IMG/VR virus record: IMGVR_UViG_3300005836_000034
Location: 1 to 20,685 of that record
Strand: one strand, 5' to 3'
From: a virus
Length of the DNA: 20,685 nucleotides
Of the stretch, positions 2,653 through 9,797 are shown in pieces (positions within the stretch are counted from its first letter, which is position 1; every line of letters begins with the position of its first letter). Under the pieces are notes generated by a model that searched no databases, was not told the origin of the DNA, and worked only from the letters and a program-made list of their open reading frames with translations. The translations under genes and the position numbers were made by a program.

Positions 2653-3582
2653 TCACGCTGCGGCCAGCATCTGAATGGGGACTCGCACGGCGGCCTGGCC
2701 TTGCGCGATGCCTTCGACGACGAGCGCCGGGAGCATCCATGCGTACTGGACGAGGCCTCCGAGCGTCGTCTGATGGCGTCGCTGCCCGAAGAACGGGTTG
2801 TCCTTGAGCGACGGGTCGAAGTCGGCCTGTTGCGCTTCGAGCGCGTTCTCGATCGCCGTCAGCGCGGCGTTCAACTGCGCGCTTGGGATCATCTCGGTCG
2901 GCTCATCGAGCCGGAAGTACATGTAGACGAACGCTTCGAGCATCCACGTCGGAGGCACGCCGAGCCGGTTGACCGGGGTCTGATCTCCGGTCGCGAGGTA
3001 CAGCGCCGGCTGCTCGTCGCGGGAGATGTCGTCCCACGTCTTCAGCCGGCGGGACATGGTGACGAAGCCTGGCACGTTCGCCTGAAGCCGCGCGAACAGC
3101 GCCGCGTAGATCGGCTCGCGATCGAGCGCCATGATTTCCTCCTCGGTCAGCGGGAGCTCGGCCTCTTGGAGCTCGAAGTCGTCGATGGCCCACGTCGCCT
3201 GGCCGTTGCCGGGAGGCGGCGAGGCTTGCAGCGTCATCTGCACGGTCGCGGCTTGCGGCGTGTACTCACCGAAGTCGTAAAGAACGAAGTCCGCGGTGAC
3301 GCCGACGGGGAAGGCGACCTCGTAGGCCGCGACGCCGTCGTCGAGAATCAGGCTCCCCGATCCGACGTCCTCGACGACCCGGATCCACACGAGCAGCGGG
3401 TAGACCTGGCCGACGACGAGGGTGAGCGTCTTCGTCCATGCCGAAGCGGTCGTGTTCGCACCATGCTTCGACGACGCGAGCGACAGCGCCGTCGGCGGCG
3501 AGACACTCCCGTTGTCGCTCGTGATCTGGGCGCGGCCAGAGACCGCCCCATCCCCGAACGGCGGGTTGAAGATGAGTTTCAT
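2653..3582 (-). CDS. Tail terminator-like protein with N-terminal beta-sandwich-like domain
   Basis: 309 residues that look like two proteins in one frame. The C-terminal part (about 151-309: MALDREPIYAALFARLQANV, TWMLEAFVYMYFRLDEP, then a helical region and MLPALVVEGIAQGQA) resembles tail terminator proteins, which cap the tail tube and join it to the head. The N-terminal 145 residues look like a carbohydrate-binding-type jellyroll: NPPFGDGAVSGRA at the start, alternating beta strands, and the ending ATWAIDDFELQEAELP, similar to the closing strand of CBM-like modules. An internal ATG at 3132 (codon 151) is preceded by AGGAGG (3143-3138) with a 5-nt spacer, so a separate 159-residue terminator could also be made. 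ATG at 3582 overlaps the upstream stop. Terminator assignment is by position and length; the N-terminal fold is inferred. Confidence 0.7.
   Translation of the reverse strand: MKLIFNPPFGDGAVSGRAQITSDNGSVSPPTALSLASSKHGANTTASAWTKTLTLVVGQVYPLLVWIRVVEDVGSGSLILDDGVAAYEVAFPVGVTADFVLYDFGEYTPQAATVQMTLQASPPPGNGQATWAIDDFELQEAELPLTEEEIMALDREPIYAALFARLQANVPGFVTMSRRLKTWDDISRDEQPALYLATGDQTPVNRLGVPPTWMLEAFVYMYFRLDEPTEMIPSAQLNAALTAIENALEAQQADFDPSLKDNPFFGQRRHQTTLGGLVQYAWMLPALVVEGIAQGQAAVRVPIQMLAAA
3130..3143 (-). promoter_or_regulatory. Strong internal ribosome binding site inside the tail terminator gene
   Basis: AGGAGG at 3143-3138, spacer AAATC, then an in-frame ATG at 3132. It falls exactly at the junction between the beta-sandwich-like half and the tail terminator-like half, so it probably allows independent translation of the terminator. 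It is a better ribosome binding site than that of most gene starts in this window. Confidence 0.6.
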
Positions 3583-4070
3583 CCGCGCACCGCCATGATC
3601 GCGGCGCGCGCGAGCCGCATGCGCACCTCGGGACGCATCTCCTCGAGCGAAGGCGCGAGGAACGGCCGGGCCGCGAAGTGCTTGATGCCTGGCGGGTGCT
3701 TGTAGATGTGGATCTCGCGGGCCAGCCCGCCGAGGTTGGCGAGGCCGCCGCTGGCATCGGCGCCGACCGGGCGATCGAACCCGCGTTCCCAGAAGGCGCC
3801 GTAATTGACGTTCGTCCCAACCGTCCCGACGATCTCGTCGCCGTTGACGCGCACGCTCTTGTTGATGCTGCGCTTCAGGCGCCCGGTCTTGACGTGCAGC
3901 ACCTGACCGGACAGCTTCTCTTCCTTGACCTTGCGCTGAAGCTGGATCGAGAGCCGCTCGACCTCTTCGCGGATCCGCTCGCGCGAGCGCGCGCTGGCGT
4001 TCACGAAGTTGAGGCGCACCGACTCGGCGCCGACGACCGTTGCCGTGATCTGGATCGGCGCACCGCTCAT
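3579..4070 (-). CDS. HK97 gp10-family head-tail (tail completion) protein
   Basis: 163 residues with the hallmarks of the HK97 gp10 family: a charged N-terminal helix (RSRERIREEVERLSIQLQRK), the motif HVKTGRLKRSI at about 59-69, VGTVGTNVNYGAFWERGF at about 81-98, and the closing AARPFLAPSLEEM at about 133-145. Members act at the neck, completing the head-tail joint. It lies between the gp6-like adaptor and the tail terminator, the normal order. ATG at 4070 overlaps the upstream stop (ATGA) and its own stop overlaps the next start. Length is typical. Confidence 0.85.
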   Translation of the reverse strand: MSGAPIQITATVVGAESVRLNFVNASARSRERIREEVERLSIQLQRKVKEEKLSGQVLHVKTGRLKRSINKSVRVNGDEIVGTVGTNVNYGAFWERGFDRPVGADASGGLANLGGLAREIHIYKHPPGIKHFAARPFLAPSLEEMRPEVRMRLARAAIMAVRG

Positions 4071-7611: not shown

Positions 7612-7648
7612 GGAAGGCACTGTTAGGTTTGGAGGGGGGTGCTTTTAT
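7612..7648 (-). promoter_or_regulatory. Repeated leader box, copy A (upstream of protease)
   Basis: On the minus strand this reads ATAA, a C-rich tract, CCAAACCTAACA, two variable bases and GCCTTCC. It begins at the stop codon of the MuF-like gene. The CAAACC core starts at 7631, exactly 51 nt before the protease GTG at 7580. The second copy is at 11569-11606. Function unknown: promoter, RNA leader or protein-binding site. Confidence 0.6.
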
Positions 7649-8352
7649 TCCTCGTCACGCGGCGACAGAACCGGGAGGAGGTCGCATTCGCAATTTCCGT
7701 GACGGGGCGGATCGCCTCCATCGAACTCGTCGTCAAGCGGGACGATCTGCCCGTCGAGCGCAGCGCATTCGGGGCACGGGTCCTCGCTCGCGGACCACTC
7801 CTTGCCCTCGACGACCCCCGAGGTCTTCCAGCCGATCAGGTTGCCCTCGACGTCGGCGAACGCGGTCTCCGTGCGCGCGATCATCTCGGCCCGACCCTCG
7901 GAGAACCACACCGACCCCTCGATGTTGTCGGCGAGCTCGTCGTTCGAGATCCCGGTCTGTTGCGCCTCGGCCACAAGCTGGCGCAGCTTGTCCCGCGTCG
8001 TGTCGTCGATCGACCATCGCGGGTTGGGGTTGACGATCAGCTCGCCGTCTGAGGTGCGCTTCATGCCGACCATCTCGGCCGCGCGCGCCCGGGCCCAGTC
8101 GAGCGAGGGCTCGTTCACCTGCTCGAGCATCGCCTTGTACTCGACGCCGAGACCGACCAGCCCATCTTCGGCGCCGGCCAGGGTGAGGTCTTCGAGGAAC
8201 GGGGTCAGCTCTTCGATCAGGCGCTCGCGCTCTTCCGCGGAGACTTCGGCGAGGAGCGCTTCGAGGTCTTTCTTGTCGATCTTCGCGATCTTGGTCAGTC
8301 GCCCGACCAGGCGATCACGCTGGGCCGTCAGGTACGCCGCGACCGCCGCCAC
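7645..8352 (-). CDS. MuF-like minor head protein (SPP1 gp7 / Mu gpF family)
   Basis: 235 residues. The N-terminal half is helical and charged (ERERLIEELTPFLEDLTL). The C-terminal half is the MuF domain: RAEMIARTETAFADVEGNL at 154-172, then EWSASEDPCPECAALDGQIV at 185-204 and PPRHGNCECDLLPV at about 215-228, giving a C193-C196 and C221-C223 metal-binding-type set. Such proteins sit inside the head near the portal and are often ejected with DNA. GTG at 8352 lies inside the end of the portal gene and has no visible Shine-Dalgarno. The frame stays open upstream to a 10-A run in the portal gene, so it may also, or mainly, be made as a portal fusion. Confidence 0.85.
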   Translation of the reverse strand: MAAVAAYLTAQRDRLVGRLTKIAKIDKKDLEALLAEVSAEERERLIEELTPFLEDLTLAGAEDGLVGLGVEYKAMLEQVNEPSLDWARARAAEMVGMKRTSDGELIVNPNPRWSIDDTTRDKLRQLVAEAQQTGISNDELADNIEGSVWFSEGRAEMIARTETAFADVEGNLIGWKTSGVVEGKEWSASEDPCPECAALDGQIVPLDDEFDGGDPPRHGNCECDLLPVLSPRDEE

Positions 8353-9797
8353 GAAGCCGCGCGGAATGGTACGAGGTCCATGCCGGCGCGCTTTTTTTTT
8401 TCGAGACTGCCGCCGCCGGCGCCGTCATCGACTCCCTTGGGCTTGTCGCCACCGGGGGGCATATCGCCACCGGGCGGGATGACGGGCGGGACGATCTCCT
8501 CGGGCACCGCATCCACGGGCAGGCCGTACCACTCCTTGGCGATGTACCCCGCCTTCGCGATGCGGGCGTTCACGAGGATCTGCGCGACCTGGGCCTTCTT
8601 GAGCGCGTCGGGGATCTCTTCGTCGAGGTAGACGAACTCCAAACCGTCGGCGCCGAATACCTTGGCGAGAACCTCGTCCATCAGGTCTTTGAACCAGAGC
8701 TTGATCGGCTCCAAGCCCTCGGTCTGCGCGCCCACCGCCGACTGTTGCGCTGCGGCGCGGTTCATGGGCTTGATGAGCGCGGATCGGTCGATCGACAGCG
8801 CGAACGCGATCACCGACGAGATGTAGTCGTCGGTCTCGTCCTTGAGCGCCGGGGCTTTCGCGATCGTGACGCTCGAATCGTGCGGGATCACGCGCAGACG
8901 CCGGCGCGCCTGGATGTCGCCCTCCAGGTTGTCGAGCCACCCCTGGTAATCGGCGATCTGTTGCGGCGTCCATCCCGTGGCGCCGTTCAGGAAGGCGTCG
9001 GGCACGTTGCCCGTCGTGAAGTACGAGGTCATGAAGCTCTGCCGACGGAGGGCGAGGTTCAGGATCCCGAGCACCTGCTCGACCGGGGACATCCCATAGA
9101 ACCGATACACGCGCGGGTTCCGGACCGCCGAGATCACTTCGTCCTGGGTCCAGGTCACGGGCTTCTTGCGGCCGGTCTCGTCGACGTAGGTGACGGGGAT
9201 GCCGTTGATCACCTGCGACCACGCGGGCTCAGGGGGCATAGGCAGACGGCCGTCGATCGCGGTGTACGGCTTCATCGTCGCGCCGTCGATCAGCTCGGCG
9301 ATCTCCTCGTCGGGGAGCGCGTAGACGATCACCGCGTCCGTGACGAAGCACTCTTCGAGGATCATCCGCTGCCACTGGCGGAAGGTGTGGATGCCGTCCG
9401 GCCGGCGCAGCTTCTGTTCGATCTCGCGCGCGCGGGCCCCGCCGTCGGTCTTCCCGTCGGTCGAGGCGATGGCCCAATCCTGGCCGGCCATCTGATCCTT
9501 CCGCGTTTCGATCGCCAGGCGCAGGAGGTCGAGGCCACCGAGCGCCGGATCCGCGAGCGCGCGGAGCATGTCGAATTGAAGCCCGGTCTCGCTCGCTTCG
9601 GTGCGCGGGAGGAACTGCGAGTTGACCGTGGCCGGGTAGGCGAACTGCCGCGGCTTGTCGCCGTCGATGACCGTCGGCTGCATCGGCGTGCCAGGGCCCA
9701 TCCACGCCATGCGCATGGAATCGCCGAACGCGCGGACGGACGCTACCCCTCGCTGTGCCAGGGAGGTGAATCGTGACGCGAGGCCGATTTGAGGCAT
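8328..9797 (-). CDS. Portal protein
   Basis: 489 residues. The portal forms the dodecameric channel at one capsid vertex, through which DNA is packaged. Visible family features are the long alpha/beta core with AYPATVNSQFLPRTEASE near the N-terminus, ETRKDQMAGQDWAI, an ILEECFVTDAVIVYAL segment, YRFYGMSPVEQVLGILNLAL, the SYFTTGNVPDAFLNG segment and IDRSALIKPMNRAAAQQSA near the crown. The C-terminal tail is G/P-rich (IPPGGDMPPGGDKPKG) and reaches a KKKR run coded by the A10 tract. ATG at 9797 is preceded by AAGGAG with 8-nt spacing and overlaps the end of the large terminase by 55 nt. The reading frame is open further upstream but that part is antisense-like in composition, so this start is preferred. 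Confidence 0.9.
   Translation of the reverse strand: MPQIGLASRFTSLAQRGVASVRAFGDSMRMAWMGPGTPMQPTVIDGDKPRQFAYPATVNSQFLPRTEASETGLQFDMLRALADPALGGLDLLRLAIETRKDQMAGQDWAIASTDGKTDGGARAREIEQKLRRPDGIHTFRQWQRMILEECFVTDAVIVYALPDEEIAELIDGATMKPYTAIDGRLPMPPEPAWSQVINGIPVTYVDETGRKKPVTWTQDEVISAVRNPRVYRFYGMSPVEQVLGILNLALRRQSFMTSYFTTGNVPDAFLNGATGWTPQQIADYQGWLDNLEGDIQARRRLRVIPHDSSVTIAKAPALKDETDDYISSVIAFALSIDRSALIKPMNRAAAQQSAVGAQTEGLEPIKLWFKDLMDEVLAKVFGADGLEFVYLDEEIPDALKKAQVAQILVNARIAKAGYIAKEWYGLPVDAVPEEIVPPVIPPGGDMPPGGDKPKGVDDGAGGGSLEKKKRAGMDLVPFRAASWRRSRRT
8358..8401 (-). promoter_or_regulatory. Possible -1 slippage site joining portal to MuF (A10 run plus stem-loop)
   Basis: Ten consecutive A on the coding strand (8401-8392) are phased ga A AAA AAA AAG in the portal frame, giving the heptamers A AAA AAA and A AAA AAG. 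Immediately after, CGCGC-CGG-CATGG (8390-8378) can pair with CCATTCCGCGCG (8369-8358) to form about 11 bp with one bulge and one mismatch around an 8-nt loop. The -1 frame is open through to the MuF stop at 7645. The spacer is short (0-3 nt), less than the usual 5-8. RNA polymerase slippage adding one A would give the same fusion. On the opposite strand the same DNA reads as a GC hairpin followed by ten T, like an intrinsic terminator. Confidence 0.5.

Follow-up and report, generated by a model that had tools for sequence, protein, structure and literature searches.

The window examined here is a stretch of 20,685 nucleotides of viral DNA (IMG/VR virus record IMGVR_UViG_3300005836_000034), on the minus strand of which a phage portal gene (8328..9797; 489 codons, from the ATG at 9797 to the TGA at 8328-8330) contains a run of ten adenines (A10, 8392..8401) beyond which the -1 frame leads into a MuF-like head protein. 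The question that this locus raises is whether the run is a programmed slip site by which one gene gives rise to two proteins, a plain portal and a portal-MuF fusion, and, if it is, whether the slip is made by the RNA polymerase or by the ribosome. Judging from the sequences of the window and its relatives, we regard it as highly probable that the A10 run is such a site and yields both proteins. Comparison across the family shows that the junction between portal and MuF is under selection for recoding in many of its members, by means of several different signals.

The A10 run and the frames that meet at it

On the plus strand the run reads as T10, and no other homopolymer on either strand of the window reaches eight nucleotides, a C7 being the next longest. 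The portal frame reads GAA AAA AAA AAG across the run, as the initial annotation had stated, after which the frame continues for 20 codons to the zero-frame stop at 8328..8330 that terminates the plain portal. The -1 frame past the run (7645..8391) is uninterrupted for 248 codons as far as the MuF stop, a TAA at 7645-7647, and encodes the MuF domain; the count of 469 + 248 codons bears out the open -1 frame and the fusion of about 717 residues that had been predicted, and gives its length as 717. The two halves match a single portal family in order: in a profile search PHROG 2662, which has 717 positions, matches the portal half over its positions 68-395 (6.2e-35) and the MuF half over positions 493-714 (3.4e-29). 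The Pfam family Phage_Mu_F (PF04233) scores 55.1 bits on the MuF protein, over its gathering cut-off of 29.6, and Phage_portal (PF04860) scores 31.1 bits on the portal, under its cut-off of 39.1.

The phase of the run had been described as the most slip-prone possible. The run places the slippery heptamer A_AAA_AAG in the portal frame, and every run of nine or more adenines contains an in-frame A_AAA_AAN. Among relatives the phase differs from one A9 run to another, and A10 stands in the window's phase in 18 of 22 cases. The first start codon of the MuF frame past the run is a GTG (8350..8352) 13 codons beyond it and close to the portal stop; the earlier remark that it has no visible ribosome binding site holds, no sequence resembling a Shine-Dalgarno (SD) element having been found before it. 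There is likewise no SD in the 30 nt upstream of the run. The imperfect 11-bp stem that had been proposed to follow the run does fold, yet no better than shuffled sequence (z = -0.66 for the 45 nt past the run, 8347..8391, which include the candidate stem), and these nucleotides are not counted as a functional part. This value, taken with the lack of structure at A9/A10 relatives described below, is the ground for rejecting a downstream hairpin as part of the window's signal.

An AlphaFold2 model of the window portal, built from a 10-row alignment, has a mean predicted local distance difference test score (pLDDT) of 45.9, and a blastn comparison of the window DNA with a phage collection gave no match.

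The junction in relatives

Relatives were collected as the best 80 by MuF, the best 80 by MuF alignment and two phage records, to which a portal alignment added the best 80 in bacterial genomes and the best 80 in viral contigs. These lists overlap in part (a few rows were already present), the later searches were seeded with 10-locus alignments (the window, eight A-run splits and one +1 split), and the proportions among the listed relatives do not equal population frequencies; the A-run was absent from the search patterns used to gather them, and was used only in the later scan of IMG/VR described below. Profile searches sorted the 320 records, the window included, into 177 in which portal and MuF are fused in one frame, 33 with MuF at -1, 18 with MuF at +1, 3 that keep one frame with the two domains separate, 4 in which the two lie far apart and 85 without both domains. 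Two entries that are the window itself (L001 and L002) were removed before counting. Merging of near-copies left 147 clusters (106 fused, 25 at -1, 11 at +1, 2 same-frame splits and 3 far apart), one of which is mixed, in that it joins the split L007 to the fused L187. Counts of runs and flanks cover 144 clusters, and the tree covers 139 portal cores, the 3 far clusters and 5 with cores shorter than 280 residues having been excluded. In this family portal and MuF are most commonly encoded as one single-frame protein (106 of the 147 clusters).

A run of eight to ten adenines lies at the junction in 21 of the 25 -1-split clusters, the window among them (11 A9, 9 A10 and 1 A8; L054, L178, L261 and L273 have none), with the zero-frame stop 1-25 codons past the run in all 21. 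Every split cluster with such a run shows the -1 relation, and at the frame breaks of the 11 +1 clusters there is no A-run. Directly past the run, ahead of any ATG, GTG or TTG, the -1 frame of 17 of the 21 encodes a motif resembling I/L-D-R-x-R, a loose pattern that was defined after the sequences had been inspected. None of the 21 has an SD-bearing start at or before this conserved motif, and none combines a broken A-run with a good MuF ribosome binding site.

The run is also present in relatives in which no frame has to be changed. The longest A-run in the linker of the 106 fused clusters is an A9 or A10 in 34 (21 A9, 13 A10), an A8 in 1, an A7 in 17 and an A6 in 4, while the T-runs of the same linkers, taken as a control, reach T7 once. 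Summed over the 144 clusters, 85,375 b of portal-MuF linker contain 33 A9, 22 A10, 3 A8 and 21 A7, and 1,005,772 b of flank, read on the coding strand, contain 47 A7, 8 A8 and no run of nine or more, which is in keeping with selection against slippage elsewhere. Lys-Lys-Lys tripeptides are encoded as AAA AAA AAA in 19 of 53 cases within the linkers and in 0 of 31 outside them. The run precedes the MuF core by about 100 codons in every class (medians 102.5-106.5).

In the 34 fused A9/A10 genes a +1-frame stop follows at a median of 2.5 codons (percentile 0.22 within its own gene, p = 3.4e-11) and a -1-frame stop at a median of 12 codons (percentile 0.39, p = 0.0076). This is the layout of the dnaX gene of Thermus thermophilus, in which transcriptional slippage occurs on an A9 in a fused gene with close stops in both other frames (PMC1088944, PMC5009743; here and below, published systems are described from excerpts of the papers cited), and the same A-run site could therefore serve whether the genome is fused or split.

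A scan of IMG/VR for an A9 followed by DNA coding for IDR[DE]R returned 17 stretches, all of which encode MuF and 16 of which encode a portal as well; 11 have an A10, 6 an A9, and none a longer run. The 16 portal-bearing stretches are made up of 7 -1 splits, 8 fusions and the fragment L343, which reads as fused although the script had sorted it as 'split0'. Four of the stretches (L337, L338, L341 and L342) come from contigs already encountered, and the junction sequence of L340 is also that of L343. That slippage at the run joins portal to MuF, as the initial annotation had proposed, is thus supported by the retention of the run at the same place in divergent relatives and by the open fusion of most relatives. 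Of the run and the stem that it had described together, it is the run that relatives keep (A8-A10 in splits, A9-A10 in fusions); at the place of the stem the A9/A10 relatives show no structure on average.

Several individual loci differ from these patterns. The runs in two +1 clusters lie off the junction: L306 has an A8 260 nt downstream, and the A9 of L059 is some 700 nt upstream of the stop of its open reading frame (ORF), within a portal gene (2757-3783) that runs on in frame for more than 200 codons and is followed by MuF as a separate gene. The extension domain of this portal looks by eye like what we take to be a 2H phosphoesterase, and slippage at the A9 might there govern a different portal extension. 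In L178, L273, L272 and L288 the ORF stretch just before MuF resembles inserted coding by eye, not portal, and no recoding signal was seen at it. The junction of Thermoanaerobacterium phage THSA-485A (L084) contains an A9, though in an A-rich genome and with several A6-A7 runs in the same gene. Prophages of Limnobacter litoralis (L175) and Trinickia mobilis (L194) are also members of the family.

Polymerase, ribosome and other readings of the run

In E. coli dnaX the -1 ribosomal frameshift takes place on A_AAA_AAG with an SD and a stem-loop beside it, and the A9/A10 sites have neither. An SD of at least 5 nt within 24 nt upstream occurs at 0 of 55 A8-A10 sites, compared with 12 of the 16 A7 sites that are in phase, and the sequence downstream has a mean z of -0.30 in the 21 split A8-A10 clusters and of +0.22 in the 34 fused A9/A10 clusters. 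Since the A8-A10 sites lack both SD and hairpin, slippage at A9/A10 is more likely to be that of the RNA polymerase, which had been listed as an alternative and to which these comparisons now assign most of the weight, with a ribosomal share possible. The length of the run at A-run sites is held at 9-10, and in a large proportion of genomes such runs are reported to be selected against once they reach nine nucleotides (PMC1088944). The same reasoning was applied to the A11 of Citrobacter rodentium tssM, where the missing SD and structure pointed to the polymerase and the run was found to vary in length when cDNA products were analysed by mass spectrometry (PMC4256274).

The strongest rival is that the ribosome, and not the polymerase, slips by -1 on the A_AAA_AAG within the A10 and makes the same fusion. 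The heptamer is in frame in the window, all 21 A-run splits are at -1, and the A7 relatives resemble ribosomal sites with SD and hairpin. Apart from the missing SD and structure, however, the runs of split genes are never shorter than A8, though seven adenines suffice to make a heptamer, and the nearest stops of the fused A9/A10 genes lie in the +1 frame, which -1 slippage does not use. We therefore consider this explanation unlikely for the window.

Ribosomal slippage does fit other relatives, those with A6 or A7 runs accompanied by SD and hairpin. The A7 run forms an in-frame A_AAA_AAA heptamer in 16 of the 17 fused A7 clusters; the SD of the in-phase clusters that have one ends 13-14 nt before the run, usually 13, and their downstream 45 nt have a mean z of -3.37, with 12 of 16 below -1.5. 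As far as sequence layout goes, this class is the frameshift cassette of E. coli dnaX, from which the window differs in having no SD and no significant hairpin. One A7 relative is a phage-plasmid of Herbaspirillum seropedicae (L323). Two results weigh against a dnaX-type reading of the class. RNAalifold, run on an alignment of 15 A7 sites, gave a consensus fold without shared pairs, the stems lying by eye at slightly different registers, so that the support for a hairpin consists of single-sequence z-scores. Nor is the -1 stop of fused A7 genes closer to the run than is usual along the same gene (percentile 0.48, p = 0.38; it lies 4 codons on in 7 of 17 rows), which runs against the simplest expectation. 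A heptamer plus SD is found in 14 of 18 A6/A7 rows, in 8 of the 54 fused rows sorted as plain fusions, in 0 of 32 fused A9/A10 rows and in 0 of 1,256 control windows of 40 codons. A scan of IMG/VR with the A7-plus-SD consensus returned 23 stretches, of which 10 are portal-gene A7 sites of this family (9 with MuF) and 13 are not; the pattern alone is unspecific.

Further signals occur at the same junction. G_GGA_AAN heptamers are present in 10 of the 54 rows sorted as plain fusions, against 10 of the 1,256 controls (p = 8e-10), and nine fused loci without an A-run (L013, L027, L057, L065, L075, L137, L139, L282 and L290) carry an in-frame G_GGA_AAA or G_GGA_AAG close to the junction, in some cases accompanied by an SD or hairpin; these are perhaps a further slippery class. 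In fused L210 and L216, both from Methylobacterium, and L212, C_CCT_TTC or C_CCT_TTT stands at the junction with an SD-like stretch upstream, and neither of the two that were folded shows a hairpin. The sequence GGAGG-T-NN-CTT-C is found at the junction in five clusters, namely fused L255 and 4 of the 11 +1 clusters (L010, L035, L254 and L259), in which it lies at or shortly before the start of the +1-frame coding of the conserved motif. It resembles the +1 site of prfB, the gene of release factor 2, with its SD followed by CUU_U (PMC5009743), but no stop codon occupies the A site after the CTT, where CGA, CGG or CCG is found instead, and it is not the signal of the window. In 1.75 Mb of loci, duplicates included, it occurs outside linkers in L004/L103, L028/L029 and L179, and a strict scan of IMG/VR for it returned nothing. 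Two +1 splits do not have it: L192 reads CTG CTT CGA and then codes for FDIRKR in the +1 frame, and L239 has the junction TAT TAA.

A number of observations tell against a polymerase slip site with two products, either in the window or as a rule of the family. The A9/A10 runs contain A_AAA_AAG, on which bacterial ribosomes also slip; the occurrence of all splits at -1 is as compatible with ribosomal slippage as with one A being added; SD-like stretches of 4 nt accompany a few A8-A10 sites; and in L042 an AGGAG ends 20 nt upstream, just beyond the 24 nt tested. The window is known as one metagenomic contig, and its own I-D-R-x-R motif is degenerate (TIPRG), so that its case leans on the relatives. 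Among these, 54 of the 139 tree rows were sorted as plain fusions ('fused, none'), a bin that takes in L255 with its +1 motif, L164 with an A8 and the eight rows with another heptamer plus SD; most of it is without a signal, and two products may accordingly not be universal. Named fused homologues in which no slip signal was found are those of Brevundimonas phage Polewnik, Arthrobacter phage Mufasa8, Alicyclobacillus phage MMB025 and a prophage of N. gonorrhoeae, and fused Arthrobacter phage Sonali has only a stray heptamer, at its first codon. One fused homologue without a slip signal is on a 2.17 Mb N. gonorrhoeae record that is listed as a plasmid though chromosome-sized (L322, NZ_CP119140.1).

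MuF might instead be initiated separately at GTG 8352, perhaps by coupling to portal translation, with the A-run incidental. The position of the GTG in the MuF frame near the portal stop would suit this, as would the existence of relatives without an A-run in which MuF is an overlapping, separate or otherwise split gene. The absence of an SD before the GTG, the conserved coding ahead of any start codon in 17 of the 21 A-run splits and the absence of A9/A10 from the 1.0 Mb of flank make it quite improbable.

A frame break caused by sequencing or assembly error, or by a recent disabling mutation in one in-frame fusion gene, is suggested by the susceptibility of homopolymers to error, by the single contig and by the fused state of most relatives. 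A homopolymer length error was among the alternatives originally listed. Near-identical loci from different assemblies, however, have the same run length, the -1 split with its run is common to 21 clusters, and the breaks at runs go one way only. A miscounted run is, moreover, not what separates the window from its fused near relatives, because these (L124, L113 and L089) have an A10 in the same phase. An artefact or a lesion of this kind is accordingly very doubtful. L007 and L187, one split and one fused, share GTC GAA AAA AAA AA, and L007 misses one base just past the run, which suggests that the frame of the genome may change with the run left intact. The tree of portal cores needs at least 45 changes among six states (least possible 5, shuffled mean 75) and at least 9 swaps between fused and split among its A-run rows; it is a quick tree, in which 48 of the 136 inner branches are open and the pair L084 and L137 drew the one long-branch warning, and the window groups in it with one +1 row and seven rows of fused A9/A10 genes (support 90, not starred).

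These frequent swaps, together with the proneness of long A-runs to replication slippage (PMC1088944), could also point to a hypermutable contingency site, with genomes varying in run length and so switching the fusion on and off, but the constancy of the run within near-identical loci, and the use by other relatives of an A7 with SD and hairpin or of a +1 site, which act at expression, leave this extremely unlikely. An intrinsic terminator on the plus strand, for which by eye a GC-rich inverted repeat adjoins the T10, is scarcely credible, for the terminase, portal, MuF and neighbouring head genes are all on the minus strand, A9/A10 relatives are structureless beside the run on average, and the coding constraints on both frames would go unexplained. 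In that minus-strand array the terminase is identified by PHROG 979 and other matches, the end of its gene overlaps the portal start by 55 b (9743-9797), and one more protein has a weaker match to a head protease family.

Known recoding systems and the portal ring

Thermus dnaX is the closest parallel to the A9/A10 sites, with its two products that share an N-terminus (PMC1088944, PMC5009743). There slippage yields the short product, whereas the window and 20 other clusters encode the short form in the genome frame, so that slippage would give the long one, and the gene here is a phage portal. In tssM, too, a poly-A before a stop leads by slippage to a long form with no SD or structure; the two forms are needed in a set ratio, and the run slips at about 20-25% (PMC4256274). 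That gene, however, belongs to a secretion machine and the run is reported in few tssM genes, as against many phage lineages here. The G/GT frameshift of tail assembly chaperones also produces short and long forms from a phage structural gene, but it concerns the tail and is ribosomal. Portal and MuF in one protein are known from Microbacterium phages (PMC7302621) and from the record of Arthrobacter phage Sonali, where they are described, in the excerpts seen, as plain fusions with no mention of recoding. The PRFect paper (PMC10274946) makes the general point that where a gene is split in some genomes and fused in others, the split form may rely on frameshifting.

No report of portal-MuF recoding was found in the open-licence papers searched, supplements being outside the scope. 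The word 'portal' does not occur in the main text of PMC3711429 and PMC4066793 or in the first 300,000 characters of PMC5009743, and portal-MuF recoding is not mentioned in the excerpts covered of PMC7911831, PMC6095929, PMC10299305, PMC2628397 or PMC5506516. Slippage of each of these kinds is already known; what appears to be new is that a portal makes use of it by several routes.

The usual picture of a portal ring is one of twelve identical subunits, which raises the question of how a few copies of an accessory protein are placed on so symmetric a structure. In the mechanism that we favour for the window, RNA polymerase would slip on the A10 and generate a pool of mRNAs of differing run length, of which those with ten adenines would be translated into the plain portal, ending 20 codons on, while those with eleven (or eight) would bring MuF into frame and yield the 717-residue portal-MuF. 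Each phage would in this way make the two proteins in a set ratio, and the ring would be assembled from plain and MuF-bearing subunits in fixed proportion, placing a few MuF domains at the portal vertex. By analogy, the need for a small number fits the behaviour of gp7 of SPP1, a relative of MuF, few copies of which enter the procapsid by binding the portal (PMC6316719). It seems to us reasonably likely that a whole family of tailed phages builds two-isoform portal rings with a ratio set by recoding, and that the need for this is strong enough for evolution to have met it at one place along several independent lines: slippage of the polymerase on A9/A10, whichever frame the genome has; -1 slippage of the ribosome on A6/A7, and perhaps on G_GGA_AAN, in the company of an SD and a hairpin; and a +1 shift like that of release factor 2.

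For annotation, this means that a plain gene caller would split such genes, and many of the split MuF frames have no start before their conserved part. The portal-MuF family also offers a natural set in which transcriptional and ribosomal recoding can be compared within one gene. If the reading is true, the share of subunits that bear MuF would be set by slippage, so that the copy number of MuF would be fixed at expression and the portal ring would be heteromeric and not made of twelve equal subunits.

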